Assembly (NCBI GenBank): GCA_022826885.1
Contig: JAJDUB010000075.1
Coordinates: 1-64,000, forward strand
DNA length: 64,000 nucleotides
Source: Gammaproteobacteria bacterium
GTDB lineage: Bacteria; Pseudomonadota; Gammaproteobacteria; Eutrophobiales; Eutrophobiaceae
Reading direction: 5' to 3'
Below are positions 8,253-62,166 of this stretch, in pieces. The notes beneath the pieces were generated by a model. That model saw only the letters and a program-made list of their open reading frames with translations. It did not search any database and had not been told where the DNA came from. Made by a program: the position numbers and the translations under genes. Position 1 is the first letter of the stretch. Each line of letters starts with the position of its first letter.

Positions 8253-9353
8253 TCAGGTTCTCTCCCGCAAACCTTTCTCTTCCAACCTCGGCAGCACCTC
8301 GTCACGGAAATAAGGGAACTCACCGGCGAAATCCACGAATGACAGGGTGGCGCCGGCGCAACCAATTCCGTGTAGTTTCTCCAGTTCTTGCACCACCTTG
8401 TCCGGGGTGCCGACCAGGGGCATGCCGCCGTGGCCGCCGGCCATCCGCTCGCGTAACATCTTGATCACATCCTTGGGAAAGGATTCCGCGTTGGCGAACA
8501 TCAGTTCGATGACGCGGTCCACCGCGCTCCAATCGGCATTGTCTCGGGCGTACCAGTCATGGAATTCGTCCGCCTCTTTTTGCGTGGGCCGGCAGACAAC
8601 GTAGGTAAGGGCGAAAACGCCGACTTCGCGGCCCAGCGCCCCGGCCTGTTGTTTCAGGTCGTGGATGTCTTTCCTTGATTTTTCGTGCTCGATTACCGGC
8701 GTAAACAGGTAGTTCGCATTCCGTGTTGCAAACGCCTTGCCTTCCTTGGAGCCGCCGGCATTGAACACGGGAATGGCGCCGTTGACCGGTTTGGGGAAAC
8801 TGTGTACTCCCTTGAGTTGGTAGAACTCACCATCCCAGTCAAAATCTCCATCGGTCTCCGACCAGCATTTTTTTACGATGTTGTACCACTCCTGTCCCAG
8901 TCGGTAGCGCGTCTCGTGGTCATCGGGAAGATGAAACCCCAGGGCTTCGTACTCCGGTTTGTTCCAGCCGCAGACGATGTTGACACCGGCCCGACCGTGG
9001 CCGATCTGGTCCAGCGTAGCCAGTTGCTTCGCCGCGATGATGGGGTTGTGAAACCCGGTATGAGTCGTGGCGAAGATCGTGATGTTCTTCGTCAGCGCCA
9101 GCAGGCCCGCGGCCCAGGTCAGGGTTTCCAGTACGTTGTGCTGAAAATTGGTGGCGCCGCCATAACCGATCCAGCGGGCGATGGGCAACTGGAATTCCAG
9201 GCCGGCATCGTCGCTGAGTTGCGCCTGTTTCAGGTTGTTGTCCCAGGAACTGTCCCAACGTTCCTCTATCTTTGTCATAGCCTGTCCGCTGGAGCAGTTC
9301 GCGGAAAAGATCCCCAGTTTCAGCTTATTCTTGCTGTCAAGCAGGGCAGACAT
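8253..9353 (-). CDS. LLM class flavin-dependent oxidoreductase (RutA/SfnG-like)
   Basis: Bacterial luciferase-fold FMN-dependent monooxygenase, 366 residues, probably cytosolic. Recognisable family blocks are LKLGIFSAN near the N-terminus, TIFATTHTGFHNPI, DQIGHGRAGVNIVCGW and the C-terminal LSFVDFAGEFPYFRDEVLP. The block GVNIVCGWNKPEYEALG resembles pyrimidine monooxygenase RutA and dimethylsulfone monooxygenase SfnG, which act with a separate flavin reductase. No reductase gene is adjacent. It lies 52 bases after the end of liuD on the same strand, so it may be read through from the liu operon, but a functional link to leucine breakdown is not established. The substrate is unknown. Confidence 0.85.
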   Translation of the reverse strand: MSALLDSKNKLKLGIFSANCSSGQAMTKIEERWDSSWDNNLKQAQLSDDAGLEFQLPIARWIGYGGATNFQHNVLETLTWAAGLLALTKNITIFATTHTGFHNPIIAAKQLATLDQIGHGRAGVNIVCGWNKPEYEALGFHLPDDHETRYRLGQEWYNIVKKCWSETDGDFDWDGEFYQLKGVHSFPKPVNGAIPVFNAGGSKEGKAFATRNANYLFTPVIEHEKSRKDIHDLKQQAGALGREVGVFALTYVVCRPTQKEADEFHDWYARDNADWSAVDRVIELMFANAESFPKDVIKMLRERMAGGHGGMPLVGTPDKVVQELEKLHGIGCAGATLSFVDFAGEFPYFRDEVLPRLEEKGLRERT

Positions 9354-9405
9354 TGATTTATGTCGGCTGAACGATAACCATGAATTTAATCATAACAGAT
9401 CGTTT

Positions 9406-11421
9406 TTATTTATCAGCCAACACCAGCAACTCCACTCCCTCTTCCACCATGTCGCCTGCCCGGTAATGCAGAGACTGCACCGTGCCGTCATGGGGTGCGG
9501 CAATAATGTGTTCTATCTTCATGGCCTCCAGTACCAGGAGCGCATCGCCTTTCTTCACCTGTTGTCCCTCGTTCGTCATGACTTCTATGACCGTGCCGGG
9601 CATGGGGGAGATGAGGTTGCCGGTCGCTTCCTCTTCTGCGGAATGGCCGCCATCCGATAACTGTTTCAATCGGCAGGTATTTCCCGAGTCAAAGATAACC
9701 AGGTGGTCATGGTCTTCGGTCACGTCGATACGCCGTTGCGTCCCGTCCAGTATTGCCGTCAGTCTGCCGTCCGCTTCAAGCCGGCCGGATGCGCGTATGA
9801 CCTGCCTACCGGTTCGGATGACGTAATCCGGCTCCGAATGCTCATGCCTGTCGCCTGCAATGGTTATTCCCACTTCATATTCCCCGATGCCGTCGTCGAA
9901 ACTGAAATGTTCTTCCTCCACCAGGTTGGGCCGCCAGTTGTCCGTTGCCCACCAGGGAGACGCCGGGTCGGCTGAAGATGTTGCTGCCCGTTTGGCAAGG
10001 GATGCGCGCCGGAGGATCTGGTACAGGACGGCAAGACAAAGGATATCGGGGGAAACAGCTTCCCTGTTCCGAAAAAGATCAGCCTGGTGACGTTCGATAA
10101 AACCGGTATCGAAATCCGCCGCCTGGAACGCCTCATGAGAGATCACCGCTGCGAGAAAGTCAACATTGGTCGTTACCCCGGCTACCTGTGTCTCTCCCAG
10201 GGCACGGAGCATACGATGCAAACAACTTTTACGGTCGTCACCCCGCACGATCAGTTTCGCGATCAGCGGATCATAATGAACAGAAATGGAATCACCTTGC
10301 CACACTCCGGTATCCACCCGTACATCGGATGTTTCAGCCGGAAAGCGCAAGTGGCTCAGTCTGCCGGTGGACGGCAGGAAACCGTTATCCGGGTCCTCCG
10401 CATAGATGCGCGCTTCCAGGGCGTGGCCGTCGATGGCAAGTTGACCTTGGCTTGCAGGCAGCCTCTCGCCGGCGGCGACCCGGAGCTGCCATTCGACCAG
10501 GTCCTGCCCCGTGACCAGTTCGGTCACCGGGTGTTCGACCTGAAGACGGGTGTTCATTTCCATGAAATAAAACGCGCCGTCCGAAGCGGCGATGAACTCG
10601 ACCGTGCCGGCCCCGGTGTAATCAATAGCTCTGGCTGCGGCGACTGCGGTGTTGCCCATTGCACTGCGTGTTTCATCCGTTATGCCCGGCGCCGGAGCCT
10701 CTTCCAATACTTTCTGGTGGCGGCGCTGGATCGAGCAGTCCCGTTCAAACAGGTGTACCGCATTGCCATGCTGGTCGCAGAAGACCTGGACCTCGATATG
10801 CCGGGGCTGCTCCAGGTATTTTTCCAGCAGCATCTTCTCGTCACTGAACGCGCCCAGCGCTTCCCGCTTTGCCGAACGCAGCGCTTCACTGAATTCTGCC
10901 GCGCTGTTCACCACCCGCATGCCCCTGCCGCCGCCGCCCGCCGATGCCTTGAGCATGACCGGAAAACCGATCTTTTCCGCCTCGCCCAGGAGGAACGTTT
11001 CGTCCTGGTTGTCGCCGTGGTAACCGGATACAAGGGGGATGCCGGCCTGTTGCATGATGGTTTTGGCCGCGCTTTTGGAGCCCATGGCCTCGATTGCCCC
11101 GGGAGACGGACCGATGAAGGTGATGCCGGCGGTCCCACAGGCCGCGGCAAAACCGGCATTCTCCGAGAGGAAACCGTAGCCTGGATGGATCGCCTCCGCG
11201 CCGGTGCGTTGAGCTGCGCTAATCAGTTTTTGCACTGCCAGGTAACTGTCCCGGGCCGGCGCAGGACCGATGGCGACGGCCTCATCGGCCAGCTTCACAT
11301 GGCGCGCATTAACGTCCGCCTCGGAATAAACCGCGACCGTCCCGACACCAAGTCGTTGCGCGGTATGGATAATGCGGCAGGCTATCTCGCCGCGGTTGGC
11401 GATTAAAATTTTGTTAAACAA
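9406..11421 (-). CDS. liuD: Methylcrotonyl-CoA carboxylase biotin-containing alpha subunit
   Basis: Carboxylates biotin with ATP and bicarbonate for conversion of 3-methylcrotonyl-CoA to 3-methylglutaconyl-CoA in leucine breakdown. The 671-residue protein shows the biotin carboxylase domain (KILIANRGEIACRI at the N-terminus, ASAGGGGRGMR ATP-grasp loop, MNTRLQVEHPVTE), a linker, and a C-terminal biotinyl domain with EAMKIEH, biotin on Lys635. The start is TTG, four bases after the liuC stop, an unusual choice in an otherwise ATG-rich operon, but the N-terminal sequence matches the family exactly. Position after liuA-liuB-liuC separates it from acetyl- or propionyl-CoA carboxylase subunits. Confidence 0.93.
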   Translation of the reverse strand: MFNKILIANRGEIACRIIHTAQRLGVGTVAVYSEADVNARHVKLADEAVAIGPAPARDSYLAVQKLISAAQRTGAEAIHPGYGFLSENAGFAAACGTAGITFIGPSPGAIEAMGSKSAAKTIMQQAGIPLVSGYHGDNQDETFLLGEAEKIGFPVMLKASAGGGGRGMRVVNSAAEFSEALRSAKREALGAFSDEKMLLEKYLEQPRHIEVQVFCDQHGNAVHLFERDCSIQRRHQKVLEEAPAPGITDETRSAMGNTAVAAARAIDYTGAGTVEFIAASDGAFYFMEMNTRLQVEHPVTELVTGQDLVEWQLRVAAGERLPASQGQLAIDGHALEARIYAEDPDNGFLPSTGRLSHLRFPAETSDVRVDTGVWQGDSISVHYDPLIAKLIVRGDDRKSCLHRMLRALGETQVAGVTTNVDFLAAVISHEAFQAADFDTGFIERHQADLFRNREAVSPDILCLAVLYQILRRASLAKRAATSSADPASPWWATDNWRPNLVEEEHFSFDDGIGEYEVGITIAGDRHEHSEPDYVIRTGRQVIRASGRLEADGRLTAILDGTQRRIDVTEDHDHLVIFDSGNTCRLKQLSDGGHSAEEEATGNLISPMPGTVIEVMTNEGQQVKKGDALLVLEAMKIEHIIAAPHDGTVQSLHYRAGDMVEEGVELLVLADK

Positions 11422-11424
11422 CTG

Positions 11425-12213
11425 TCACTTCAACCACGCCGGTTTACGCTTTTCCAGGAAGGCCGACAAACCCTCCTTGCCCTCCTCGGATGCGCGTATG
11501 TCAGCGATGCCCTCACTGGTCTGTTGCAGGAGTTCCGGGGTTATCGGCCTGCCCGCCACGTCAAACACCAGTTGTTTCGCCGCTCTCACCGCTTCGGAAC
11601 TGTTGGACAGTATCAGATCGACGGTTTTTTCCACGGCATCATCCAGCCCTAATTCTTCCATGACCTCGGATACCAAGCCGAGTTCCATGGCCCGTTTGGC
11701 GTCAAAGCGTTCTGCCGTCTGGAAATAGCGGCGCGCCTGTTTCTCCCCGATTGCGCGTATCACGTACGGGCTGATGGTGGCCGGGATCAGGCCGAGCTTC
11801 ACTTCACTGAAGGCAAACACGGCATTGTCCGCGGCCAGGGCAATATCGCAGCACGCCACCAGGCCGCACCCGCCGCCCATTGCCGCGCCCTGTACCCTGG
11901 CGATGGTGGGCACGGGAAGGAAATTAAGCCTGCAGAGCAATTCCGCCAGGGCATTGGCGTCCCGGACGTTCTCAGCGCGCGTGTAACCAGCCATGCGTTT
12001 CATCCAGTCCAGGTCCGCGCCTGCGGAGAAATTTTTGCCGATGGAACGCAATACCATCAGCCTGCAATTATCGTCCCGGCGGATTTCGTCCAGGACGTTG
12101 CTCAGTTCCGCAATAAAATCCTCATTAAAGGCATTGTGTTTATCGGGACGGTTCAGGGTAATTGTGGTTACGCCCTGATGATCGGCGCTACAGGTGATAT
12201 ATGTGTATGTCAT
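11425..12213 (-). CDS. liuC: Methylglutaconyl-CoA hydratase (enoyl-CoA hydratase family)
   Basis: Hydrates 3-methylglutaconyl-CoA to HMG-CoA in leucine catabolism. The protein is 262 residues with the crotonase fold: LNRPDKHNAFNEDF near the N-terminus, SAGADLDWM for CoA/oxyanion binding, and AAMGGGCGLVACCDIALA around the active site. Its place between liuB and liuD, with 28 bases and 3 bases of spacing, gives the assignment; by sequence alone it would be an enoyl-CoA hydratase of unspecified substrate. Confidence 0.88.
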   Translation of the reverse strand: MTYTYITCSADHQGVTTITLNRPDKHNAFNEDFIAELSNVLDEIRRDDNCRLMVLRSIGKNFSAGADLDWMKRMAGYTRAENVRDANALAELLCRLNFLPVPTIARVQGAAMGGGCGLVACCDIALAADNAVFAFSEVKLGLIPATISPYVIRAIGEKQARRYFQTAERFDAKRAMELGLVSEVMEELGLDDAVEKTVDLILSNSSEAVRAAKQLVFDVAGRPITPELLQQTSEGIADIRASEEGKEGLSAFLEKRKPAWLK

Positions 12214-12241
12214 AAAGTTCCGGGTATTGTTGCGGGACCGG

Positions 12242-13840
12242 TTACATGCGGAATAACCCGAACCGGGTGTCTTCCAGAGGCGCGTTCAGAGCGGCGGAGA
12301 TACCCAGTCCCAGGACCCTTCGGGTGTCCCTCGGCGCGATAATCCCGTCGTCCCACAGGCGGGCGCTTGCGTAATATGGATGCCCCTGGGTTTCGTATTG
12401 CTGCCGGATTTCCTCCTTAAAGGATTCCTGTTCAGCCTCGGGCCAGTTGCCCTTCAGGTTGTCCAGCCTTACCTGCGCCAGCACATTGGCCGCCTGTTCG
12501 CCGCCCATGACCGAGATCCGGGCATTGGGCCAGGTCCACAGAAAGCGCGGGCTGTAGGCGCGCCCGCACATGCCGTAGTTGCCCGCGCCGAAACTGCCGC
12601 CGATAATCACGGTGAATTTCGGTACCGAGGTGGTGGCAACCGCCGTTACCATCTTGGCGCCGTCCTTGGCTATGCCGCCGGCCTCGTATTTTTGCCCCAC
12701 CATGAAACCGGTGATGTTTTGCAGGAACACCAGGGGGATGTGCCGTTGGCTGCATAACTCGATGAAATGCGTCCCCTTCAACGCCGACTCGGAGAACAGG
12801 ATGCCGTTATTGGCGATAACGCCCACCGGATAACCGTAAATATGGGCGAAACCGCAGACCAGGGTGGTACCGTACAAGGGCTTGAACTCGGCAAATTCGC
12901 TGCCGTCCACGATCCGCGCTATGACTTCACGCACCTCAAAAGGCTTGCGCGTATCCGGGGGGATTACGCCGTCAATCTCCTCGATTTCATATTCCGGCTG
13001 CACCGTCTCCCTGACCTCCAGACCGGCCTGCTTACGGACGTTAAAGTGAGCAACAGAGCGTCTTGCCAGTTCCAGGGCATGCCGATCGTTCAGTGCATAG
13101 TGGTCCGTTACGCCGGACTGGCGCGAATGCACGTCGGCGCCACCCAGTTCCTCCGCGCTGACAACTTCTCCTGTCGCCGCCTTGACTAGGGGCGGGCCGC
13201 CGAGAAATATGGTTCCCTGGTTTTTGACTATGATGCTCTCGTCGGACATGGCCGGCACGTAGGCGCCGCCGGCAGTACAGGAGCCCATCACCACGGCAAG
13301 CTGCGGGATGCCCCTGGCCGACAGGTTGGCCTGGTTGTAGAAGATGCGGCCGAAGTGGTCCCGGTCCGGGAACACCTCGTCCTGTTTCGGCAGAAACGCG
13401 CCGCCGGAATCCACCAGGTAGATACACGGCAAATGGTTCATCCCGGCAATTTCCTGGGCGCGCAAGTGCTTCTTCACCGTGAGTGGGTAATAGGTACCGC
13501 CCTTGACGGTGGCATCGTTGGCGACAATGATGCATTCGCGCCCTGCCACGCGGCCAATGCCGGTGATGATCCCCGCGGCCGGCACGGCATTGTCATACAT
13601 GTCCCAGGCGGCAAGTTGGGACAGTTCCAGGAAAGGCGATCCCGGGTCGCACAGGTGTTTTATACGGTCGCGCGGGAGCAGTTTGCCGCGAGACTGGTGT
13701 TTCTCCCGGGCTTTATCATCCCCGCCCCGGGCCACGATACCGGCCTTGTCGTTCAGGTCATCGACCAGGGAACGCATGGCGGCAGCGTTGGTCTTGAACT
13801 CCCCGGATTCGGGATGCAGCTCTGTTTTCAGGACAGTCAT
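12242..13840 (-). CDS. liuB: Methylcrotonyl-CoA carboxylase beta (carboxyltransferase) subunit
   Basis: Transfers the carboxyl group from biotin on LiuD to 3-methylcrotonyl-CoA. The 532-residue protein contains two crotonase-like carboxyltransferase halves, with [15 protein letters not shown] and [16 protein letters not shown] as clear signatures. The chosen start is the ATG at 13840 ([15 protein letters not shown]), which matches family N-termini; the frame stays open to 14116, but that stretch is an out-of-frame reading of liuA. It starts 8 bases after the liuA stop. Confidence 0.94.
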
Positions 13841-13848
13841 GGGCAGTC

Positions 13849-15021
13849 TCAGGCCGATTCCTCGAAGAGTTCGCGTCCGATCAACATGCGCCGGATTTCG
13901 CTGGTGCCGGCGCCGATCTCGTACAATTTCGCATCGCGTAGCAGGCGCCCTGTAGGGAATTCGTTGATGTAGCCGTTGCCGCCCAGGGCCTGGATAGCCT
14001 CCAGCGCCATCCAGGTGGCCTTCTCTGCGGCATAGAGGATGGCGCCCGCGGCATCCTTGCGGGCCGTCTCCCCGCGGTCGCAGGCCATGGCAACCGCATA
14101 AACGTAGGCGCGGCATGCATTCATTGTGGTGTACATGTCGGCGATCTTTCCCTGCATGAGCTGGAACTCGCCGATGGGCCGGTCGAACTGTCTGCGCTCA
14201 TGAATATAAGGGATGACCACGTCCATGCAGGCCTGCATGATGCCCAGGGGACCGCCCGCGAGCACGGCCCTCTCGTAATCCAGGCCGCTCATCAGCACCT
14301 TGACTCCTTTATTTACCTCGCCCAGCACATTTTCTGCAGGGACTTCACAGTCATCGAACACCAGTTCGCAGGTATTGGAGCCGCGCATGCCCAGCTTGTC
14401 CAGCTTCTGCGCGGTGGAGAAGCCCGTGAAGCCGTTTTCTATGATGAACGCGGTGATGCCGCGCGGGCCTGCATCAGGGTCCGTCTTTGCGTAAACCACC
14501 AAGGTCTGGGCGTCCGGTCCGTTGGTGATCCACATCTTGCTGCCATTGAGTATGTACCTGTCGCCCTGCCTGTCGGCCCTCAGGCGCATGCCCACCACGT
14601 CGGACCCGGCGCCCGTTTCGGACATGGCCAGCGCGCCGGGATGTTCGCCGCTGATCAAGCCCGGCAGGTATTTCCGTTTCTGCCGATCATCACCATTGCG
14701 CCGAATCTGGTTGACACAGAGATTGGAATGGGCGCCGTAAGACAGGCCCACGGAAGCGGAAGCCCGGCTGATCTCCTCCATGGCGACCACATGCTCCAGG
14801 TACCCCATACCTGCGCCGCCGTAGTCTTCCTCAACGGTAATGCCCAACAATCCCATGTCGCCCAGCTTACGCCAGAGATGTGCGGGAAATTCATTTGACC
14901 TGTCAATTTCAGACGCCTGTGGAGCGATTTCCGCTTGCGCGAAGTCATTCACTGATTCGCGCAGCATTTCCGCGGTCTCGCCGAGGTTAAAATTCAGGCC
15001 GGGATAATCGGAATTTATCAT
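13849..15021 (-). CDS. liuA: Isovaleryl-CoA dehydrogenase
   Basis: FAD-dependent dehydrogenase that converts isovaleryl-CoA to 3-methylcrotonyl-CoA and passes electrons to ETF. It has 390 residues and the acyl-CoA dehydrogenase domains in order. [13 protein letters not shown] and [13 protein letters not shown] mark the substrate/FAD region, and [14 protein letters not shown] holds Glu250, the catalytic base at the position typical of isovaleryl-CoA dehydrogenases. AAAGG lies upstream of the ATG, and a LiuR-type palindrome (15040-15049) lies 19-28 bases upstream. It is the first enzyme gene after liuR. Confidence 0.94.
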
Positions 15022-15039
15022 AAAATATTGCCTTTCTTT

Positions 15040-15049
15040 ACGTTAACGT
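15040..15049. promoter_or_regulatory. LiuR-type operator upstream of liuA
   Basis: Perfect palindrome ACGTTAACGT within CTTTACGTTAACGTCA. The same 16 bases recur upstream of liuR. MerR-family LiuR proteins are known to bind palindromes of this kind in front of leucine-catabolism genes, so liuA may be controlled separately from liuR. Confidence 0.75.
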
Positions 15050-15073
15050 CACTACACATCATATTGCTGTTCC

Positions 15074-15469
15074 TCAGTTTGAGTTTTCCATTAGCTTGTC
15101 CAGACATTTTTTTTCCACCTCATCCATCAGTTTCAAGGTGGCTTCCACGGCGTTCATTTTTTCCAGCAATGCACTCCTGTGTTCGGTAATTTTCTGACAA
15201 AGGCGTATCAGTTGCTGGGTGTTACCCGATTGCGAAGGGCCATACATGTCTATGATTTCACGGCATTCCTCCAGTGAAAACCCGAGTTCTTTGCCGCGCA
15301 GGGTGAGCAGCAGGCGGGTCTTGTCACGCTCCGAATAAATGCGCGTCTGCCCCCGCTTGGCCGGCGCAAGCAGTCCTTTACTCTCATAGAACCGCAACGC
15401 CCTGGGGGTCACATTGAATTGTTCAGCCAGGTTTTGTATGGAATAGCCAGGCACCGGACATTTCGACAT
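15074..15469 (-). CDS. liuR: MerR-family regulator of leucine/isovalerate catabolism
   Basis: DNA-binding regulator of 131 residues. The N-terminal winged helix-turn-helix reads YSIQNLAEQFNVTPRALRFY followed by ESKGLLAP, the classic MerR pattern; the C-terminal half is a dimerising coiled coil. It is the first gene of the liu cluster, 52 bases upstream of liuA, and the gene order liuRABCD is the common gammaproteobacterial one. No metal-binding cysteine pair typical of metal-sensing MerR proteins is seen in the C-terminal part. Confidence 0.9.
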   Translation of the reverse strand: MSKCPVPGYSIQNLAEQFNVTPRALRFYESKGLLAPAKRGQTRIYSERDKTRLLLTLRGKELGFSLEECREIIDMYGPSQSGNTQQLIRLCQKITEHRSALLEKMNAVEATLKLMDEVEKKCLDKLMENSN

Positions 15470-15475
15470 TACTTT

Positions 15476-15485
15476 ACGTTAACGT
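15476..15485. promoter_or_regulatory. LiuR-type operator upstream of liuR
   Basis: Second ACGTTAACGT palindrome, identical over CTTTACGTTAACGTCA to the one before liuA. It lies only 7-16 bases upstream of the liuR ATG, so binding would cover the transcription start or ribosome-binding region, consistent with autoregulation. Confidence 0.72.
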
Positions 15486-15549
15486 CAAGTTTAGCTGAAA
15501 CTCCGAAAAGATCAAGGTGAGAAACACCGATTAAAAGGGGCGGATTAAC

Positions 15550-15573
15550 GGGGACGGAATTAATTCCGTCCCC
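15550..15573. repeat. GGGGACGGA family palindrome (copy 1)
   Basis: Perfect 24-base palindrome GGGGACGGAATT / AATTCCGTCCCC between liuR and mauA, just downstream of the mauA stop. An identical copy lies at 63920-63943 inside the start of virB9. Confidence 0.85.
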
Positions 15574-15587
15574 GTTTGACAGGATAA

Positions 15588-16148
15588 CTAGTTTGTTTCG
15601 GTCGCGACGCCCAGTATGATGGCAGTGGTGCAGTGATAAATCGTGCTGTTCTCCATGCCGACGCACCAGTTGATGTCATTATTGGAAAAGGCGCGGTAAG
15701 GGGGAGTATCTCCCACGTTGTTATTGCACAGGCAGCGGCTGCAAGACGTCTTGCCGCAGCAGTCGTTGTAGGAAATTATGTAGTTCAGGTTGTCCGCCGG
15801 GTTTTTGCAGGTGCCGATCCAGGTCATGGGGTTCATCCCCGTGCCCGGGGGACAGGAAACGTGGGTGCCGCCGCAGCAACTGCAGAGGAAGCCGTCTACG
15901 GCGCAGTAGCGCCAGTAATCGCAGGATGCGGGGTCGCCCGGGTCTGCGGCAGGGTTGTCGCTGGTCTGCGGCGCCACCCCGTGGTAGCCGCTGCCGCCAC
16001 CTGTGTCCGCGGCCCGGGCCACCGGTAACAGCGGCACCGCAGCGCCGCCGGCCAGGGTCAGCCCTATGCGCTTCAACAGGTGCCGGCGTGACGTGTTGTT
16101 CGCGACCTGCCGGGAAAATTTTTCGGTGATCTTGTCCAACCAATACAT
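15588..16148 (-). CDS. mauA: Amine dehydrogenase light chain (TTQ subunit, MauA type)
   Basis: Periplasmic catalytic subunit of a methylamine/aromatic amine dehydrogenase, which oxidises primary amines to aldehydes and ammonia. The 186-residue precursor has a Tat-type signal, SRRHLLKRIGL then a hydrophobic stretch ending AVARA-like at LPVARA. Trp110 and Trp161 are 51 residues apart, the same distance as the two tryptophans of the TTQ cofactor in known light chains (Trp57 and Trp108, from memory). Asp85 and Asp129 match the known active-site aspartates. Twelve framework cysteines are present plus Cys92 and Cys136. It lies 26 bases after mauB. Substrate (methylamine or an aromatic amine) cannot be told from sequence. 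No mauG homologue is in the window. Confidence 0.93.
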   Translation of the reverse strand: MYWLDKITEKFSRQVANNTSRRHLLKRIGLTLAGGAAVPLLPVARAADTGGGSGYHGVAPQTSDNPAADPGDPASCDYWRYCAVDGFLCSCCGGTHVSCPPGTGMNPMTWIGTCKNPADNLNYIISYNDCCGKTSCSRCLCNNNVGDTPPYRAFSNNDINWCVGMENSTIYHCTTAIILGVATETN

Positions 16149-16174
16149 GACGTTATTTCTCTGTAGCTGATCCG

Positions 16175-17323
16175 TTACCTCGACGCATGGAGAATAAAAG
16201 GCGTCTCAAATGCCCTGCCGCCGATAAAACGCAGCCATTCACCGGTGTCAACGGAGTAAACATCCATGTCCATATTGCCGTTGGTCACGGCCAGGTAAGG
16301 GTGTTCACCCTTGGTCACTTCAATGGATACGCCCCATTCCTTGAGGACGATACGACCGACACGTTTTTTTGCATCCACGTCGAAGACCCAGACTTCGGTG
16401 CCGCCTCCTTTATGCGAACCGTCTTCTCCATCCGGGTGCATGAGCACGAACAACCGTCCGCTGGCCTCGTGGGCCGTTGTAATCTGCCAGCCGCCGGGGC
16501 GCCAGTTTTCCTGCCGGTCCTGCTCCTGCAACAATGACCAGGCGTCAAGCATCCCGGGGTCGGCCGCGTTCATATCGACAGGATGCACCATGCCCTTGAA
16601 CGAGGGGAAGTAATAGACACCGTCAATAACCGCCGGTTTGGCGAAAATCGGGTCGGTGTCGGCGTCAAAAAAGGCGGGAGTGCGCTCCTGTTTCGAGATC
16701 ATTCCCTTTTCATCCAGGTGCGTGACCAGCATGGTGTTATCGTTGCACAGGCTGCCGAAACTGCGTTGCTGTGACGGGTAGATCATGACGCAGCCGCCAA
16801 TACCGACTTCCGCAAGGAACGCACGATTCTCGATATTAACCACGCTGACGGATGTGCTCGGGGTGAAATTGTACACCAGCAGCAGTTTTTCGTTGTCCAG
16901 GAACTGCAGCGTGTTCTTGTGGGTGACGATCATGCCGCGTTTGGCGCCGGGCAGGACGACCTCGCCGACGGGGGCGAGATTGACCTTGTCGTAGTTGGTG
17001 ACCAGGTCCGTACGCTCCCCGCGCATGCGCCGGGAATACAGGGATTCGGCGACGTACACTTCCGGGCGGGTGGTTGCGGCGAGAAAGGACGGGAAATGCG
17101 ACGAGGGGATGGATCCCTTGTAATTCCGGTTTTCGGCCGCCACATCGATCAGGACCACCTTGGCGTCGCTTAACGAGAAGAAATTGGTGTCGTGAGCATA
17201 CACCCAGGTATCAGGGTAACTTGCCGGCAACGTCTCCACATTCGGGATCGTTTCCACCGGCAGTTCCGCCAGGGACACCGTGCATGTGAACCCGAGCATC
17301 AAGCCGAGTATGGCTCGCTTCAT
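16175..17323 (-). CDS. mauB: Amine dehydrogenase heavy chain (MauB type)
   Basis: Periplasmic beta-propeller subunit that holds the TTQ light chain and helps form the substrate channel. The 382-residue precursor begins with a Sec-type signal peptide ending near CTVSLA. Family blocks include DTWVYAHDTNFFSLSDAK, FLAEVGIGGCVMIYP and the C-terminal GRIVLKEWGVSIEVTKGE. It sits 38 bases after the TonB-dependent receptor gene and 26 bases before mauA on the same strand, so the three are probably one transcript. The usual neighbours mauF, mauE, mauD and mauG are absent here; mauE- and mauD-like genes occur at 52.2-53.4 kb. Confidence 0.92.
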   Translation of the reverse strand: MKRAILGLMLGFTCTVSLAELPVETIPNVETLPASYPDTWVYAHDTNFFSLSDAKVVLIDVAAENRNYKGSIPSSHFPSFLAATTRPEVYVAESLYSRRMRGERTDLVTNYDKVNLAPVGEVVLPGAKRGMIVTHKNTLQFLDNEKLLLVYNFTPSTSVSVVNIENRAFLAEVGIGGCVMIYPSQQRSFGSLCNDNTMLVTHLDEKGMISKQERTPAFFDADTDPIFAKPAVIDGVYYFPSFKGMVHPVDMNAADPGMLDAWSLLQEQDRQENWRPGGWQITTAHEASGRLFVLMHPDGEDGSHKGGGTEVWVFDVDAKKRVGRIVLKEWGVSIEVTKGEHPYLAVTNGNMDMDVYSVDTGEWLRFIGGRAFETPFILHASR

Positions 17324-17361
17324 TATTGCCTCCCCATTACTTCCAGGATGACCAGTTTACC

Positions 17362-19755
17362 CTAGAAATTATAGGCGATACTACCACCTACCCAGCGCGG
17401 GCGGCCGTAGTATTCCTCGATCCATCCCAGCACTGCGGCAATGTCGAAGGACTGCACCACGTAATTCTCGTCGGTAATGTTCTCGGCAAATACCGCTGCT
17501 TCCCATTTACCACCGGCGCTGGCCCAGGACAGCCGGGCATTGGCAATATGATAACCATCTTCGGTAACGGCATCGGCCCGCGTCACGGAATGGTGGTGCT
17601 TCGAGCGATAATGGATGTCTCCCTGTATGGCCATGGAACCGCCGTTGAATGCCGGCCATTCATAACGAACCAGGCCGTTCACGTTCCATTTCGGCGATTG
17701 TATGGACGTGGTCTTGCTGCCGTCCGCCAGGGTAACATCCATATCGTTATAGGAAAGGCCGAAAGCCACGTCCAGGCCTTCCGCCGGGGTCAGGAACAGT
17801 TCGGTTTCGAAGCCGATGCTTTCCGCATCCGGCGCGCTGACTACGTTGGTCGCCAGGCTGACAATAGTAAATGCCTGGAAATCCTTGTAATCATTGTAGT
17901 AGGCGGAGGCGTTGAACCGCGCCAGGCCGTCCATCAGGGTTGACTTGAAGCCGACCTCGAAGGCATTCAACTCTTCCTCTCCAAAAGAGAATTGCACATC
18001 AAATTCATCCTGGGATGACACAACCCCTTGCGGTTGCGCCAACACCAGCAGGGGATTGAGCGGCGCATTGAATCCACCGCCTTTCACACCCCTGTTCCAA
18101 CTGGCATAAGCCAGCAGGTTATCATTCGGCCGCCAGTCCAACTCCACCTTGGCCGACCACAAACCTTCATTATATTCGCCGTCGTAATCCAGTTTCGACA
18201 GGGGCGGATAGCCCAGAATTTCGATAAACGCCGCGGTAGGAACGGCAATGTTCGGGTTGCCGTTGCGTTCCACGCTGCCGTCATTGGGGAACCAGACCAC
18301 GTTGCTTTCGTAATGGAAATCCACAGTCTCGTCAATCCAGCGAAATCCGCCAATGACCGTAAACTGGTCGTTGAGCTCGTACTCCAGCTGCCCGAACAGC
18401 GACCAGGAATCCTTTTGTTGCTGGTAGGGGTTGTCAACACCGACATAAGCGTCGGCCGGGTCGGGAAGCCCCAGCGCCGGCCCGGAGAGACCAAAAAGCC
18501 CTGCTGCCAGAAAGGCGCTGACGGGATCGAATCCGAAAGCCTCAAAGTTCCCGACTCCCACGGGGTTGCCGCCGGTGCCCATACTGTCCGTACCCAGCCC
18601 CGGTATCTCTGCGCCGTTGGCGTCGGCGATATCGATATCCAGGTAATAATACCCGGCTACCCAGCGCAGCCTGTCAGTCTCTCCGTCCAGGCGGACCTCG
18701 GTGGACCACTGCTCGGCGTCGGTATTGAGGAAAAAGTTGAAATCGGCATGGGGGCTGGCATCTGAATCTTCGATATAGTCACGTTCCACACCCTGGCGGT
18801 CCATGATCACGGTCAGCAGGTTGTCGCCCAGTTGCCATTTCATGGTGCCGGTGAAGCCATAAGTTTCCAGGTCATTGTGGCCCAGCTTGTCGTAGTCGCC
18901 GGCAAAGTTGTCGCCGTCGCCATCGCAATAACCGTTAAAGTTCGTATACAACGAGCAATTGTCCTCCTTGACGCCGTTACCCACTTCATCAAGTGAGCCG
19001 CTGACGTTCTCAAAGAAGCCGGTTCGGATCTCCTGCAGTGAATAACGGGCGTTCAACAACAGGGAAAAATCCTCGTTGGGTTCAAACAGGAGCTGCATCC
19101 TGCCCGCATAATCGTTGGCATTGTTCAGGTCGTTGCCGGGGTCCAGGCGGTTTTCTACGTACCCGCTGTTGTGGTGGGTGGCCACGGACAGCCTTGCGGA
19201 CAGTCCTTCCGTCAGCGCGCCGGTGACAGCACCCTGGAATTTCACCTGGTCATATTCGCCCACGGTGACCTGGCCGTAACCGCCGAACTCCTGCTCAGGC
19301 TTGTTGGTGACGAAGTGGGCCAGGCCGCCGGTGGCGTTCCGGCCGTACAAGGTGCCCTGCGGACCGCGCAGGATCTCCACCCGTTCCATGTCGAACAGCA
19401 TGAAACCGGCGCCGGACATCTGCGAGATATATACTTCGTCCACGTACAGGGAAACGGGACTTTCCTGGTTGGCGACGAAGTCACTGTTGGCCGCCCCGCG
19501 GATGGCAAGAGCATAGTTTGCCTCGCCGTTCGGTTGTACTGTGTGAACGCCGGGCGCCAGCGCGGTGATCTGCTGGGCGTTGGTATAACCCAGTTGCCGC
19601 ATCTGCTCGCCGGAAAACGCGGTAATGGCGATGCCGACATCCTGGATATTCTGTTCACGTTTTTGCGCGGTGACGATGATCTCTTCCAGCACCTGGGCGT
19701 TTACCGGCCCGGCAATGGCGAAAACCATCAGGATGAGTATGCTTCGTTTTACCAT
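17362..19755 (-). CDS. TonB-dependent outer membrane receptor
   Basis: Outer membrane active-transport channel of 797 residues. The start at 19755 (MVKRSILILMVF) is chosen because a purine-rich GAGGGGG motif lies upstream and a signal peptide ending NAQ follows; the frame continues 31 codons further upstream without family similarity. EEIIVTAQKR just after the signal peptide resembles a TonB box. A plug domain occupies about residues 30-170 and the rest is beta-barrel, ending in SIAYNF with the terminal Phe typical of outer membrane proteins. It is the first gene of a probable operon with mauB and mauA, and divergent from a TetR gene. The ligand is unknown; co-transcription suggests the amine substrate, a derivative, or a metal needed for the enzyme. 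Confidence 0.9.
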   Translation of the reverse strand: MVKRSILILMVFAIAGPVNAQVLEEIIVTAQKREQNIQDVGIAITAFSGEQMRQLGYTNAQQITALAPGVHTVQPNGEANYALAIRGAANSDFVANQESPVSLYVDEVYISQMSGAGFMLFDMERVEILRGPQGTLYGRNATGGLAHFVTNKPEQEFGGYGQVTVGEYDQVKFQGAVTGALTEGLSARLSVATHHNSGYVENRLDPGNDLNNANDYAGRMQLLFEPNEDFSLLLNARYSLQEIRTGFFENVSGSLDEVGNGVKEDNCSLYTNFNGYCDGDGDNFAGDYDKLGHNDLETYGFTGTMKWQLGDNLLTVIMDRQGVERDYIEDSDASPHADFNFFLNTDAEQWSTEVRLDGETDRLRWVAGYYYLDIDIADANGAEIPGLGTDSMGTGGNPVGVGNFEAFGFDPVSAFLAAGLFGLSGPALGLPDPADAYVGVDNPYQQQKDSWSLFGQLEYELNDQFTVIGGFRWIDETVDFHYESNVVWFPNDGSVERNGNPNIAVPTAAFIEILGYPPLSKLDYDGEYNEGLWSAKVELDWRPNDNLLAYASWNRGVKGGGFNAPLNPLLVLAQPQGVVSSQDEFDVQFSFGEEELNAFEVGFKSTLMDGLARFNASAYYNDYKDFQAFTIVSLATNVVSAPDAESIGFETELFLTPAEGLDVAFGLSYNDMDVTLADGSKTTSIQSPKWNVNGLVRYEWPAFNGGSMAIQGDIHYRSKHHHSVTRADAVTEDGYHIANARLSWASAGGKWEAAVFAENITDENYVVQSFDIAAVLGWIEEYYGRPRWVGGSIAYNF

Positions 19756-19822
19756 TTGATACCCCCTCGGACACGAGTTGAAGGAAAAATTTCTGTGCCC
19801 GAATGTACTTGCACAGCTAATT

Positions 19823-19857
19823 TTAGGACAAACGTCTAAATAGGTCAATAGTCCTAT
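19823..19857. promoter_or_regulatory. Tandem operator-like palindromes between TonB receptor and TetR genes
   Basis: Two adjacent imperfect palindromes lie in the divergent intergenic region. One is TTAGGA-CAAACG-TCTAA (19823-19839) and the other ATAGGT-CAATAG-TCCTAT (19840-19857). An 18-base palindrome of the same design, TTAGGA-N6-TCCTAA, lies upstream of the acyl-CoA synthetase gene (28336-28353). The natural candidate to bind is the adjacent TetR protein. Confidence 0.55.
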
Positions 19858-19930
19858 GCCAAAATTATGAAAAATTTGTTCGATACTCTAAAATGTAATC
19901 CGGCACAGCAATTCCGGTAAGCAAACATTT

Positions 19931-20614
19931 ATGTTGATACGAGAACGCAAAGCCCTGAACCGTTCCGGAACGGCTACCCAGGAGAAAGGCGTAACGCGCC
20001 TGATCAGTATCCTGGATGCGGCGAGGGAGGTCTTCATGGAGGCCGGGTACGGCGGCTTTACCATGCGCAGGATCGCAGCCCGCGCCGGCATCACCATCGG
20101 CAACCTCAACTATTATTACCGGACCAAGGAAGACCTGTTGCAGGACCTGCTGGAATACGTCATCAACGATTACCTGGTGGAATTCGAGCGCCGGCGGCAG
20201 ATTGCCGGGCATTCTCCGGAAAAACAACTGCTGGCGGTGCTGAAATTCTGGATAGATGACCTGGGCACCCAGGAAACCACCATATTCTTCCCGGAACTCT
20301 GGGCGCTGGGGAACCATGAACCCCGTATCGCCGAACTGGTCGATGAACTGTACGCAAAGGCAAGGCTGCCGTTGAACGAACTCATCCCGCAAATCAACCC
20401 GACCCTGACCAGGAAGGAAGCGGAACGCATGGCCTTGTACATGTGCGCGGCGATGGAAGGCCTGACGGTCTTCGTGGGCAATGACAAAGCCTGGGCGGGC
20501 CAGATCGAGGAAATAAAGCGGATCACCATCAGGAATTTCCTGGATATGATCAAGAACACGAAAGGCAAACGCAAACAGGGCATCCAGACTGAAGCGACTG
20601 AAAAACCATTATGA
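19931..20614 (+). CDS. TetR/AcrR family transcriptional regulator
   Basis: Repressor-type regulator of 227 residues. The N-terminal helix-turn-helix is MRRIAARAGITIGNLNYYYR, preceded by ILDAAREVFMEAGYGGFT as usual for TetR proteins; the C-terminal two thirds form the ligand-binding and dimerisation domain. It is divergent from the TonB-receptor-mauB-mauA operon, with tandem palindromes between them, so control of that operon and of itself is likely. The ligand is unknown; an amine or its oxidation product is a reasonable guess. Confidence 0.9.
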   Translation: MLIRERKALNRSGTATQEKGVTRLISILDAAREVFMEAGYGGFTMRRIAARAGITIGNLNYYYRTKEDLLQDLLEYVINDYLVEFERRRQIAGHSPEKQLLAVLKFWIDDLGTQETTIFFPELWALGNHEPRIAELVDELYAKARLPLNELIPQINPTLTRKEAERMALYMCAAMEGLTVFVGNDKAWAGQIEEIKRITIRNFLDMIKNTKGKRKQGIQTEATEKPL

Positions 20615-48184: not shown

Positions 48185-48859
48185 ATGAGCATTAATCAAA
48201 AACTGAGCGCGACAGAACGGCAAGCTGCCGCGCCTGCCGTCAAAAAAATGCGCAAGGACGCCATACTCAAGCGCAGGGAGCTGATTAAACATGCCACTGA
48301 AATGTTCCTGGAAATGGGCTATGAAAAAGCCAGCATGAATAATCTTGTCAAGCGTTCCGGCTCTTCAAAAAGCACCATCTACAAACATTTCCGAAGCAGG
48401 CAGGCGCTGTTCATCGCGGTACTGGATGAGATAATACGGGATCACATGGAACCCATTGAAAGCCTGGATCTTACGACCCTCAGTATTGAAGAAGGACTGA
48501 AACTGATTGGAAGGACAAGCCTGAAGGTAATCACGTCGCAGGATTTCGTTAACCTTTGCCGTATCATTTACGCCGAAGCTGAACGGATACCTTATGTAGG
48601 CAACACCTACTACGAACACGGGCCAAAACGCGGCATGGCAGGTGTAGTGAAATATCTCTCAACAATGGTGGAAAAGGGCCGGATCAAGTGTACTGATCCA
48701 TCCGCTGCGGCAGAATACTTCTGGGGCATGATACTGTATAAGTCCATGCTGCAGAGGTATTGCGGCATCAGAGGTCCTTTGACAACCCGGGAACAAATTA
48801 TTCATGTAGACAAAGTTGTCGATGCTTTCATGTCTGCTTTCATTGAAAAGATCACATAG
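48185..48859 (+). CDS. TetR/AcrR family regulator of the hydroquinone cluster
   Basis: Regulator of 224 residues. The helix-turn-helix is ASMNNLVKRSGSSKSTIYKHF after a 40-residue basic leader; the rest resembles TetR_C domains of AcrR-type repressors. It lies between the minus-strand reductase-hapC-hapD genes and its own downstream operon, 10 bases before the PcpA-type dioxygenase gene, so it probably controls both directions from the 100-base divergent region. A quinone or hydroquinone ligand is likely but not shown. Confidence 0.88.
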   Translation: MSINQKLSATERQAAAPAVKKMRKDAILKRRELIKHATEMFLEMGYEKASMNNLVKRSGSSKSTIYKHFRSRQALFIAVLDEIIRDHMEPIESLDLTTLSIEEGLKLIGRTSLKVITSQDFVNLCRIIYAEAERIPYVGNTYYEHGPKRGMAGVVKYLSTMVEKGRIKCTDPSAAAEYFWGMILYKSMLQRYCGIRGPLTTREQIIHVDKVVDAFMSAFIEKIT

Positions 48860-48869
48860 GAGAACCATC

Positions 48870-49838
48870 ATGTCCGATAAGCTGCCAGGCACAAGCCTGA
48901 CCGGTCATCACCATATCACGATCGGAGTCGGCAACGTGCAGGAAGACTTCGATTTTCATACCAAGGTGCTGGGCCTGAAATGCGTCAAGCGCACCCTGTT
49001 CTACGACGGGGCCACGCCGGTTTACCACCTGTACTACGGGAACGACATCGGTGAAGAGAGTACGCTGCTCACCACATTCCCTGTGGCCCACATCGGCGTG
49101 AAGGCCAAGGAAGGCAGCGGGCAGGTCAGCTTCGTGAGCCTGTCCGTGCCCGAAGATTCACTGCCCTATTGGCGTAAACGCCTCACGGAGCATGATTTCG
49201 AGGTGACGGAGACCGAACGTTTCGGCGAAAAACACCTGGATTTCCGTTCCCCGCACAACATCCGCATCTCCATGGTCGGCGTCGACGACGATTCACGGGC
49301 GCCGTATTCCGATGGGCCGGTGCCTGCCGAGAACATGATCCGCGGCACCCACGCTGCCGGTGTTTCCACCCGCGACATGGAATTCATGGCAGAGTTCCTG
49401 GAGGTGGCGTGGGGCTCCCGCAAGGAAGCGGACGATTCCAACCTGGTTCGCTACAGTATGGGCGAAGGCGGCACCGGCACCTACACGGATTTTGAGATCG
49501 AACCGGACCGCAAGCCTGGTTCCTGGACCGTGGGAGAAGGCGCCATCCACCACATGGCCTACAATGTGCCCAGCCGCAAAGAGCAGGATGCCATCAAGTT
49601 TTTTACCGAGGGACTGGGTTACACGGATTTCTCCGACGTAAAAGACCGCGGTTATTTTGATTCCATTTATATCCGCACTCCGTCAGGCGCTTTGTTTGAG
49701 GCCTGCTGCTCGCACAAACCTGCGTTCACCTGCGACGAACCACTTGAAACGCTCGGCACCAAGCTGATGATGTCGCCACAGATCGAAGCCCATAAAGACG
49801 AGGTGCTGAAAGTTATTGGTGAAATCAGGGATGATTGA
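48870..49838 (+). CDS. pcpA: PcpA/LinE-type hydroquinone 1,2-dioxygenase
   Basis: Vicinal-oxygen-chelate Fe(II) dioxygenase of 322 residues, resembling the chlorohydroquinone dioxygenases PcpA and LinE. Shared stretches include VKRTLFYDGATPVYHLYY, EPDRKPGSWTVGEG and GYTDFSDVKDRGYF. Predicted iron ligands are His15 (GHHHITIG), His227 or His228 (AIHHMAYN) and Glu277 (ALFEACC). AGGAGAA precedes the ATG at 48870; the longer reading from 48816 overlaps the TetR gene and is rejected. It starts the catabolic part of the operon and would form a hydroxymuconic semialdehyde or, from chlorohydroquinones, maleylacetate directly. General glyoxalase is the less likely alternative. Confidence 0.87.
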   Translation: MSDKLPGTSLTGHHHITIGVGNVQEDFDFHTKVLGLKCVKRTLFYDGATPVYHLYYGNDIGEESTLLTTFPVAHIGVKAKEGSGQVSFVSLSVPEDSLPYWRKRLTEHDFEVTETERFGEKHLDFRSPHNIRISMVGVDDDSRAPYSDGPVPAENMIRGTHAAGVSTRDMEFMAEFLEVAWGSRKEADDSNLVRYSMGEGGTGTYTDFEIEPDRKPGSWTVGEGAIHHMAYNVPSRKEQDAIKFFTEGLGYTDFSDVKDRGYFDSIYIRTPSGALFEACCSHKPAFTCDEPLETLGTKLMMSPQIEAHKDEVLKVIGEIRDD

Positions 49839-49850
49839 GTAAAACAACAG

Positions 49851-50912
49851 ATGAATTTTCACTATACGGCGCTTCCGTGGAACATCATTTTCGGCACCGG
49901 CGCCCGTAAACGCCTGCCTGAAGAACTGGCGAAACTGGGCTACTCCCGCGCCCTGGTGCTGACGACGCCGAACCAGGCGGATACCGGACAGGAGATAGTC
50001 AGCCTGCTGGGCGACAAGGCGGCGGGACTGTTCGACCGGGCCTTGATGCACGTGCCCGGCGAAACACTCGACCAGGCAACAGCGGAAGTAAAACGGCTTG
50101 ACGCAGACTGTACCGTTTCCATCGGCGGCGGTTCCACCACCGGCCTTGGCAAGGCCCTGGCTTTCCACCTGGACCTGCCCAATATCGTGCTGCCCACCAG
50201 TTACGCCGGTTCGGAGATGACCAACCTGTGGGCGGTGACCCGGGACAACCGTAAAACCACCCGGCGCGATAGTATCGTTGTTCCGACGCTGACCATCTAT
50301 GACCCGGAACTGACCCTGACGCTCCCGCCTGGATTCGCTGCCGCCAGCGGCATGAACGCCATGGCCCAGGCCGTTGCCAATGCGGCCGCGGAAGACGCCA
50401 ATCCCTTCAGTGCTGTAATGGCGCTGGAGGGCATCCGCGCCCTGGCGCAGAATCTGCCTCTCATCATTGCCGGACCCGGCAACATGGACGCGCGCGCCGG
50501 GGCCCTGTACGGCGCCTGCCTGGCCGCTGCCGCGCTGGGGACAGGCACGACCGGGCTGCACCATCGCCTGTGCCATACTTTCGGCGGCACGTTCAACACG
50601 CCCCATGCCGAGACCCACACGATCCTGCTGCCGCACAGTGTCGCCTACAATGCCGGCGCCAGGCCTGCGGCGACGCAACGCATTGCCGTGGCCCTGGGTG
50701 TTACCGATGCGGCTACCGGCCTGTTTGAGCTGGCGGGAAAACTCGGCGCCCCTACCGCGTTGAAGGACATAGGGATAAAAGAGACGGATCTCGATGAAGC
50801 CGCCGCTGTGACCGTGGAGAAACCGGTCAACAACCCCGAGCCGGTCACCCGGGAACGGGTGCGCGCCTTGCTTGAAAACGCCTTCCACGGACGCCTTCCC
50901 GCTCCTGTGTGA
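49851..50912 (+). CDS. Maleylacetate reductase
   Basis: NAD(P)H-dependent reduction of maleylacetate to 3-oxoadipate. It is a 353-residue iron-type alcohol dehydrogenase family protein with SIGGGSTTGLGKALA (nucleotide binding), PTSYAGSEMTNLW and HHRLCHTFGG plus PHAETHTILLPH, the pattern of MacA/TftE/HapF-type maleylacetate reductases. It follows the PcpA-type gene by 12 bases and precedes the CoA-transferase by 3 bases. Confidence 0.92.
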   Translation: MNFHYTALPWNIIFGTGARKRLPEELAKLGYSRALVLTTPNQADTGQEIVSLLGDKAAGLFDRALMHVPGETLDQATAEVKRLDADCTVSIGGGSTTGLGKALAFHLDLPNIVLPTSYAGSEMTNLWAVTRDNRKTTRRDSIVVPTLTIYDPELTLTLPPGFAAASGMNAMAQAVANAAAEDANPFSAVMALEGIRALAQNLPLIIAGPGNMDARAGALYGACLAAAALGTGTTGLHHRLCHTFGGTFNTPHAETHTILLPHSVAYNAGARPAATQRIAVALGVTDAATGLFELAGKLGAPTALKDIGIKETDLDEAAAVTVEKPVNNPEPVTRERVRALLENAFHGRLPAPV

Positions 50913-50915
50913 TCG

Positions 50916-52256
50916 ATGAGAAACGTACCGCAGATAACCCTGGAACAGGCCGCCGCCAAGGTGCGCCCCGGCGATGTGCTGATCGTCGGCGGATTCGGCA
51001 TGACGGGCAACCCGACCAACATCATGCACGCCATTGCCGAAACCGGGGTGAGAGACCTCACTTATATCGGCAACAACGTGGGCGAACCCGGCCTGGCCGG
51101 CGGACGCTGCCTGCGCCAGGGACAGCTCAGGAAAGTCATCGGGTCATTCTTCACCAGCAACCCGGAAGCCGTTGCCGCGGCACAGTCCGGGGATGTCGAA
51201 TTCGAACTCCTGCCCCAGGGCACCCTGGCCGAGGCAATCCGCGCCGGCGGGGCCGGCCTTGGGGGGTTCTTCACGCCCACCGCGGCAGGAACACCGCTGG
51301 CGGACGGCTGTGAGACCAGGGCCATCGACGGCACGGAGATGGTGTTCATTCCCGCGCTGCGCGCCGACGTTGCCGTCATCAGGGCCTGGCGCGCCGATAC
51401 CATCGGCAACCTGCAGTACCGTATGACGGAAAACAATTTCAACCAGGCCGCCGCGACCGCCGCGGAGCTGGTCATCGCCGAGGTGGAGGAGATCGTCCCG
51501 ACCGGGGCGCTGGACCCGGACTTCATCCACACCCCGGGCTGCTTCGTCGATTACCTGGTGCAAGCCGACCTCAACCCGGAGCACCTGGGCACCTCGGCAT
51601 CGGTGGCGGCGAGCCTGAAAAAAGTGGATGAAGCCCGCATGATGATGGCAAGGCTCGCGCTGGCCGAGTTGAAGCGGGGCGACATCGTGAACCTGGGTGT
51701 CGGCATCCCCACCCTGGTGGCGGACCTGATCAAGCCGGGGGACGGCATCGTCCTGCATTCCGAAAACGGCATGCTGGGAGTAGGACCCGAACCTGAAACC
51801 GGCGGCGCCATGGAGTACCCGATCAATGCCGGCAAGGTGCCGGTGACCGCGTTGGCCGGTTCCAGCTATTTCGACAGCGCCGCGTCCTTCGCCATGATCC
51901 GGGGCGGCCACGTGGACGCGGCCATTATGGGCGGCTTGCAGGTGGACGAACAGGGTAGCCTGGCCAACTGGGCCGTGCCCGGCAAACCGCTGCTTGGGGT
52001 CGGCGGCGCCATGGACCTGGCATCCGGCGCCGGCAGACTGATCGTGACCATGACCCATTGCGACAGGAACGGCAACTCCAAGGTGGTGCAAAAATGCAGC
52101 TTGCCGCTGACCGCGCGCAATGCCGTCGATGTACTGATCACGGACCTCGCGGTATTCAATTTCGACGATTCGGGGATGCGCCTGGTGAAACTCCTGCCCG
52201 GCGTCACGGAAGACGAGGTGCGGCAGAAAACCACGGCGAAGTACAACCATGTTTAA
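50916..52256 (+). CDS. 3-oxoadipate CoA-transferase-like protein, A and B subunits fused
   Basis: Transfers CoA, probably from succinyl-CoA, to 3-oxoadipate. The 446-residue protein joins an A-type half ([17 protein letters not shown]-like start, [16 protein letters not shown]) and a B-type half ([17 protein letters not shown]) with catalytic Glu283 in SENGMLG. Usually the halves are separate PcaI and PcaJ or ScoA/ScoB; fusion occurs in some homologues. The position right after maleylacetate reductase supports 3-oxoadipate rather than acetoacetate as substrate. Its last 8 bases overlap the mauE start. Confidence 0.87.
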
Positions 52257-52809
52257 CCTTGCCTTCGATCCCGCTCTCAATCTCATTGCCGCGCTCATAC
52301 TCAGCTACGTGTTCGTGCTGGCGGGACTGCACAAGTGCAAGGCGCCGGCAGAGTTCGCGACCACCCTGGCGAATTACAAAATTCTGCCGGAGAGCCTGGC
52401 CCGCCAGGGCGTCTACCTGGTTCCGGTAGCTGAAATCATGACCGGGGTTGCCTTGCTGATACCTGCCACGGCGACGCTTGCGGCTTTCTCGGCAGGCACA
52501 CTGCTGTGTATCTACATCGCCGCCATAGGCATCAACCTGCTGCGCGGCCGGCGCAATATCGACTGCGGTTGCGGCGGCCCGGCCCAGAAACAGACCATCA
52601 GTGAATGGATGATCGTGCGCAATGGACTACTGCTGGGTCTTGCTTATATCACCGGCAGCCAGACGCTGGCGCGCCCGCTGCTCTGGTTCGACTGGTTCAC
52701 AGTCATCCTGGCAACCGTCATGGGTTGCCTGTTCTACAATATCATCAACCAGTTGCTGGTGAATAAAGACCTGCTGAAATCATTGAACCGAGAGGAATTC
52801 CATGCCTGA
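52249..52809 (+). CDS. mauE: MauE-like membrane protein
   Basis: Inner membrane protein of 186 residues with four or five helices, needed in known systems together with MauD for correct folding and disulfide formation of the TTQ light chain. IDCGCGGP with Cys106 and Cys108 on the periplasmic side is the MauE/DoxX-type redox motif. It overlaps the CoA-transferase gene by 8 bases and mauD by 8 bases, so it is translated with the hydroquinone operon. Its natural client, MauA, is encoded about 35 kb away. A different disulfide-rich client cannot be excluded. Confidence 0.87.
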
Positions 52810-62061: not shown

Positions 62062-62089
62062 CGTCACCCCCGGGTGCGGACTTAGGCAT

Positions 62090-62115: not shown

Positions 62116-62166
62116 CGTCCCCGGCAGAAACCAGGAAAAACAGGATTATTTAACGAGGATTAACAC

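Follow-up and report, generated by a model that had tools for sequence, protein, structure and literature searches.

A TonB-dependent receptor gene conserved beside tryptophan-tryptophylquinone amine dehydrogenase genes, with a predicted TetR repressor, in a gammaproteobacterium

Why should the gene for a TonB-dependent receptor (TBDR) stand immediately in front of the genes for a periplasmic amine dehydrogenase, when TonB-dependent uptake is established for siderophores, vitamin B12, sugars and a few aromatic acids? The question is raised by the first 64,000 nucleotides of contig JAJDUB010000075.1 (assembly GCA_022826885.1; Gammaproteobacteria, Eutrophobiaceae), referred to here as the window, in which TBDR, mauB-like and mauA-like genes follow one another head to tail on the minus strand with gaps of 38 nt and then 26 nt, and a gene for a TetR-family regulator is divergent from them (Table 1). 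A sequence-only reading of this DNA had described these spacings, the divergent regulator and tandem palindromes at the head of the genes, and had proposed that receptor and dehydrogenase form one regulated unit. The ORF coordinates and the TetR_N match bear out the first two points, and both palindromes are real. The listed ORF of the receptor begins with a TTG at position 19848, upstream of a likely ATG start with a signal peptide. At the other end of the unit, the palindrome downstream of mauA lacks a U-tract and is thus not a canonical terminator; its sequence, GGGGACGGAATTAATTCCGTCCCC, is present in two copies in the window (15550-15573 and 63920) and may be a dispersed repeat. Directly downstream of mauA (window 8253-15469) there are genes of a leucine/isovalerate-type degradation pathway with a MerR regulator, an order kept in L015 and not in L014.

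Table 1. Positions of the receptor-dehydrogenase unit, its regulatory elements and the unlinked maturation genes in the window
Feature	Position	Strand	Basis or remark
Perfect 24-bp palindrome downstream of mauA	15550-15573		Possible unit end; second copy at 63920
mauA-like light chain	15588-16148	-	Pfam MauA PF02975, E 3.7e-48, 163.1 bits (cutoff 25)
mauB-like TTQ amine dehydrogenase heavy chain	16175-17323	-	Pfam MauB PF06433, E 1.2e-41, 143.3 bits (cutoff 21)
TonB-dependent receptor, 797 aa	17362-19755	-	Pfam barrel PF00593 and plug PF07715
Predicted sigma-70-type promoter TTGACC-17-TAAAAT	19820-19848	-	Consensus match, not proof
Primary operator, minus strand TTAGACGTTTGTCCTAAA	19822-19839		Covers part of the -35/-10 spacer and the -10 box
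Second operator-like palindrome ATAGGTCAATAGTCCTAT	19840-19857		Also in L014 and L015
TetR-family regulator, BetI-like C-terminal domain	19931-20614	+	Pfam TetR_N E 6.4e-16, TetR_C_6
mauE, unlinked from mauBA	52249-52809	+	PF07291, E 1.1e-28
mauD, thioredoxin-like, 8-nt overlap with mauE	52802-53425	+	TIGR02661, 183.7 bits (below cutoff 188.6); tree
Zinc metallohydrolase, conserved neighbour	53592-54635	-	Best NCBIfam TIGR04558, quinoprotein relay metallohydrolase, below cutoff

The organization of the regulatory region is that of a repressor-controlled single promoter, as far as can be judged from the DNA itself. The predicted promoter, which matches the sigma-70 consensus at 10 of 12 positions and is the joint best of five such matches in positions 15460-20000, overlaps both operators. 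The primary operator is conserved in related form and in the same place at eight loci (the window and seven others) from at least three genera, and its pattern, with one mismatch allowed, occurs a single time in the 3.43-Mb genome; apart from the window, only the two loci nearest to it (L014 and L015) have the tandem second palindrome. The module retains a TetR relative irrespective of how its genes are ordered, and in the effector domain of the relatives found beside it in both Gamma- and Alphaproteobacteria the stretch TT..FPE.W is invariant. The TetR protein is the predicted repressor of the receptor-mauBA unit. A separate promoter in the 38-nt gap between TBDR and mauB had been named as the observation that would speak against a single unit, and the consensus scan of 15460-20000 gave no match inside this gap. 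We infer that receptor, mauB and mauA are co-transcribed.

Both dehydrogenase chains exceed the cutoffs of their Pfam families, which are also those of methylamine dehydrogenase (MADH) from the mau cluster of Paracoccus and others. The nearest solved structure to the heavy chain is aromatic amine dehydrogenase (AADH; 2h3x, E 1.6e-50), and the same enzyme is nearest to the mature light chain; the full-length MADH precursor 3c75 scores about equally for the light chain because its leader is included. The mauA leader is of twin-arginine type. When MauA is aligned to the light chain of AADH, with numbering set by the tryptophan-tryptophylquinone (TTQ) tryptophan of the latter, it keeps the equivalents of W109 and W160, which form TTQ, of the catalytic residues D128 and T172, and of all 14 aligned cysteines. 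The window MauA/MauB pair is thus a member of the TTQ amine dehydrogenase family with the TTQ residues intact, TTQ itself being predicted. Identity with MADH was rejected, as the chains scored 144.5 of 454.45 bits and 179.3 of 196.85 bits against the equivalog models TIGR02658 and TIGR02659, and, unlike in MADH clusters, no mauG is linked to the window genes.

The aau cluster of Alcaligenes faecalis, which encodes its aromatic (aralkyl) amine dehydrogenase, consists of orf-1, aauBEDA and the c-type cytochrome gene orf-2. The window enzyme resembles the A. faecalis enzyme in the structural and catalytic features described above, and like the aau genes it has no linked mauF or mauG; the window's relatives share with the aau cluster the order B-E-D-A-cytochrome. 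This order, ending with a small c-type cytochrome, is found in the sister species (L016) and not in the window lineage, where mauED and the cytochrome are unlinked. Further differences from A. faecalis are the linked TBDR and TetR genes and the long branch that separates the window enzyme from AADH in the tree. The window cluster is an altered form of an aromatic-amine-dehydrogenase type cluster. Two further mauBA pairs are present in the genome, three in all. On contig C41 (L010:9220-11466), TTQ mauBA and a cytochrome c gene lie beside phenylacetate-type genes resembling paaK, paaZ and paaI; on contig C81 (L011:9414-14113), TTQ mauBA precede a Rieske oxygenase gene and one for an Old-Yellow-Enzyme-like protein, and a TBDR gene 2.4 kb upstream is divergent.

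Conservation of the receptor beside mauBA was surveyed in the 80 best MauA relatives from named genomes together with loci of the window's own family, giving 90 mauBA pairs. A TBDR gene lay within 2.5 kb in 57 of the 78 related pairs with enough flanking sequence (73%), on the same strand in 49, and in 17 of 18 members of the gammaproteobacterial receptor-type clade; the surveyed loci were chosen for their similarity to the window and are related to one another, which means that 57 of 78 is not a prevalence and that the rows are not independent. The common module in Gammaproteobacteria is TetR-TBDR-mauB-mauE-mauD-mauA-cytochrome c, and that of sphingomonads is TetR-mauBEDA-two cytochromes-TBDR-aldehyde dehydrogenase-acyl-CoA ligase. 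Alteromonas sp. C1M14, Paraglaciecola marina, Pseudoteredinibacter isoporae and Novosphingobium subterraneum are among the culturable bacteria that have the full module. Relatives with the same order as the window have receptor-mauB gaps of 10-165 nt. The proposal of the sequence-only reading that TBDR and mauBA form one regulated unit gains support from this pairing, which is conserved in both related and distant genomes, as well as from these gap lengths and the promoter scan; the non-conservation that would have counted against it was not seen. Genes for c-type cytochromes stand beside mauA in 76 of the 90 pairs, and an aldehyde dehydrogenase and an acyl-CoA ligase are encoded near the module in many relatives, which fits use of the oxidation product. 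At L070-L074, L080, L084 and L090 the first small cytochrome 3' of mauA has a second one, of dihaem type, behind it, which is another variant of the electron-transfer end. At four other loci (L044, L086, L037 and L046) two different mauBA pairs are adjacent, one with and one without mauED, an arrangement that could give mixed enzymes or provide for two substrates.

The window receptor has the plug (E 3.9e-16) and barrel (E 8.8e-25) domains of a TBDR, both over the Pfam cutoff, and a TonB-box-like EIIVTAQ near the N-terminus; no N-terminal signalling domain was found. A structure model (pTM 0.76) has the barrel fold, with FyuA as the best PDB match (TM 0.87 by target length). Fold and sequence resemble siderophore receptors generally, and neither the model nor the PDB fold search narrowed the choice of ligand. 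Twenty-one gammaproteobacterial mau-linked receptors, that of the window among them, form a core clade (SH-aLRT 97) free of the 47 other TBDRs of the complete sister-species genome G017, whereas the mau-linked receptors of sphingomonads and those of other Alphaproteobacteria each form a separate clade (SH-aLRT 100 in both cases). As these receptors fall into different clades, the receptor-dehydrogenase pairing probably arose at least three times. A larger, 32-row group of only mau-linked receptors, seen in a first tree that included 30 of the 48 receptors of G017, was rejected when the addition of 17 more placed four unlinked receptors inside it. These four branch just outside the core clade, within a wider group that also holds mau-linked receptors at about 3.6 kb and the receptor of the C81 locus; the claim is therefore restricted to the 21-row core.

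The sequence-only reading had held that the maturation genes of known mau and aau loci were missing here. This is so for mauF and mauG, which are absent near mauBA, but not for mauE and mauD, which lie 36 kb away in the same window. They end a single run of genes (window 48185-53425) for TetR, a VOC-family protein, an Fe-alcohol dehydrogenase, a fused CoA transferase, MauE and MauD. In the sister species G017, mauED are located between mauB and mauA, and in the tree the window mauED, together with the mauED of four further genomes in the genus, are sister to the G017 operonic pair, within the operonic group. The metallohydrolase gene, found after mauA and the cytochrome gene in G017 and G050 (synteny at L016 and L017), follows mauD in the window. 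The orthology of mauED and the position of the metallohydrolase gene together show that the operon has been split in the window lineage. The window mauE is the sole MauE match over the family cutoff in a genome with three mauBA pairs, and mauED presumably act in trans on mauBA. The cytochrome gene is likewise gone from the window unit, and the one copy found in the genome is that beside the C41 mauBA. A blue copper protein was considered as electron acceptor and rejected, the one pseudoazurin-like gene lying beside an apparent PQQ dehydrogenase gene (named by eye) and not near mau genes.

The lack of mauF and mauG in aau clusters has been noted before. Among the 14 members of the window's taxonomic family with these dehydrogenases, four encode no MauG-family protein at all, three of these four being at least 95% complete, and the same is true of 10 of 21 isolates carrying the module. 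These carriers widen the known gap of aau without mauG, the formation of TTQ in them being putative. As several are cultured isolates, how TTQ is made can be tested in them. Another member of the family, G037, has a mauBEDA locus of the classical kind, where a MauG-family gene is close by and a receptor gene is absent. The sole MauG-family (PF03150) protein of the window's genome is encoded on contig C10, beside a methanethiol-oxidase-like gene (named by eye). At this locus (L012:7830-11040) an MtoX/SBP56-like gene precedes what appears to be a SCO1-like/MauG-like fusion.

Our working hypothesis, which we hold with moderate confidence, is that a TetR-controlled receptor imports the amine that the periplasmic MauA/MauB TTQ dehydrogenase oxidizes. 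TetR would repress the single promoter driving receptor, mauB and mauA until the amine or its product binds it and the receptor is made; the receptor would then transport its ligand actively through the outer membrane, this ligand being a scarce or bulky amine and probably a primary amine of the arylalkyl type. On the periplasmic side, MauA/MauB would convert the amine to aldehyde and ammonia, which would then be taken into the cell, and would pass electrons to a small c-type cytochrome, operon-encoded in relatives and found here only as the C41 copy. MauE and MauD, needed for folding of the disulfide-rich small subunit, would serve all three mauBA pairs in trans. Import of the substrate is supported by the recruitment of separate receptor lineages to one type of enzyme, by the dedicated TetR and by the aldehyde dehydrogenase and CoA ligase encoded nearby in many relatives. 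Against it, small amines are expected to cross porins, and C41-type mauBA beside phenylacetate genes have no receptor, so that the enzyme class is not always receptor-dependent. The C41 paralogue probably handles phenylethylamine-like amines, in which case the substrate of the receptor-linked enzyme is probably a different amine that is scarcer or larger. We advance more tentatively the wider proposal that a TonB-coupled system of amine import and oxidation, in which the receptor delivers amines directly to the periplasmic dehydrogenase and a TetR is dedicated to the unit, evolved on three or more occasions, and that TTQ is made without a MauG-family protein, possibly with the aid of those small c-type cytochromes whose genes come after mauA in relatives.

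It is also conceivable, if unlikely, that the receptor imports a larger compound containing the amine (an amine conjugate, alkaloid, peptide-like or amino-sugar compound) or that the enzyme oxidizes a bulky amine directly. Bulky or rare ligands usually need active transport, dedicated receptors have been recruited repeatedly and the enzyme, on its long branch, is a subfamily of its own; the module, however, has no broadly conserved processing enzyme such as a hydrolase. We consider it quite improbable that the receptor instead brings a metal, haem or a siderophore for the enzyme system, as haem iron for cytochromes or iron for maturation. The siderophore receptors that are all its nearest solved relatives, and the frequency of c-type cytochromes with mauA, agree with such a role, yet regulation is predicted to be by a TetR that has an operator of its own, unique in the genome, and not by an iron regulator, the MADH-like locus of G037 has MauG and no receptor, and the use of separate receptor clades with one enzyme type is more in keeping with a common substrate than with a general demand for metal. 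A chance neighbourhood of functionally unrelated genes is most implausible even in a genus rich in TBDRs, since the 48 in the 3.57 Mb of G017 predict, as an estimate from density, a receptor at roughly 10% of loci, against the 73% found in a survey that spans Gamma- and Alphaproteobacteria and three or more lineages of receptor. Nor is the window dehydrogenase at all likely to be a decaying copy that has lost mauE, mauD and the cytochrome from its operon: the three genes are indeed missing there, but mauED and one cytochrome are still in the genome, the catalytic residues are all kept, and dN/dS values of 0.04-0.15 across mauA, mauB, receptor (0.05-0.11) and TetR, including the comparison with L015, which has the same reduced arrangement, indicate strong purifying selection.

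Import by a TBDR under local control has a precedent in DdvT of Sphingobium sp. SYK-6, which imports a lignin-derived dimer under the local repressor DdvR (PMC6874591). The two systems have in common a TBDR with an IIVT TonB box and a local repressor shared with catabolic genes, but the DdvT substrate is an aromatic acid that is moved to the cytoplasm by DdvK and DdvR is of MarR type, whereas the window enzyme is periplasmic. Novosphingobium sp. KN65.2 has a mauBEDA operon and does not grow on methylamine (cited in PMC8292978); the part of that article concerned with the operon draws no link between it and a TonB receptor, and the operon is probably the sphingomonad form of the module in the window. 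Nothing linking TonB receptors with TTQ or aralkylamine dehydrogenases was found in open-access papers, a body of literature that leaves most subscription journals outside, and the conserved receptor-dehydrogenase unit appears to be undescribed, its parts being known. If the working hypothesis is true, the unit adds amines to the ligands imported through TonB, and, as the substrate range of the enzyme predicts the ligand of the receptor, it offers a direct handle on both. The window lineage also represents an operon being dismantled while its maturation pair apparently keeps serving three paralogous enzymes in trans. At the far end of the window (58721-63898) are genes that, judged by eye, resemble those of a type IV secretion system (a VirB4-like ATPase and VirB5/VirB6/VirB8-like proteins), perhaps part of an integrative element.
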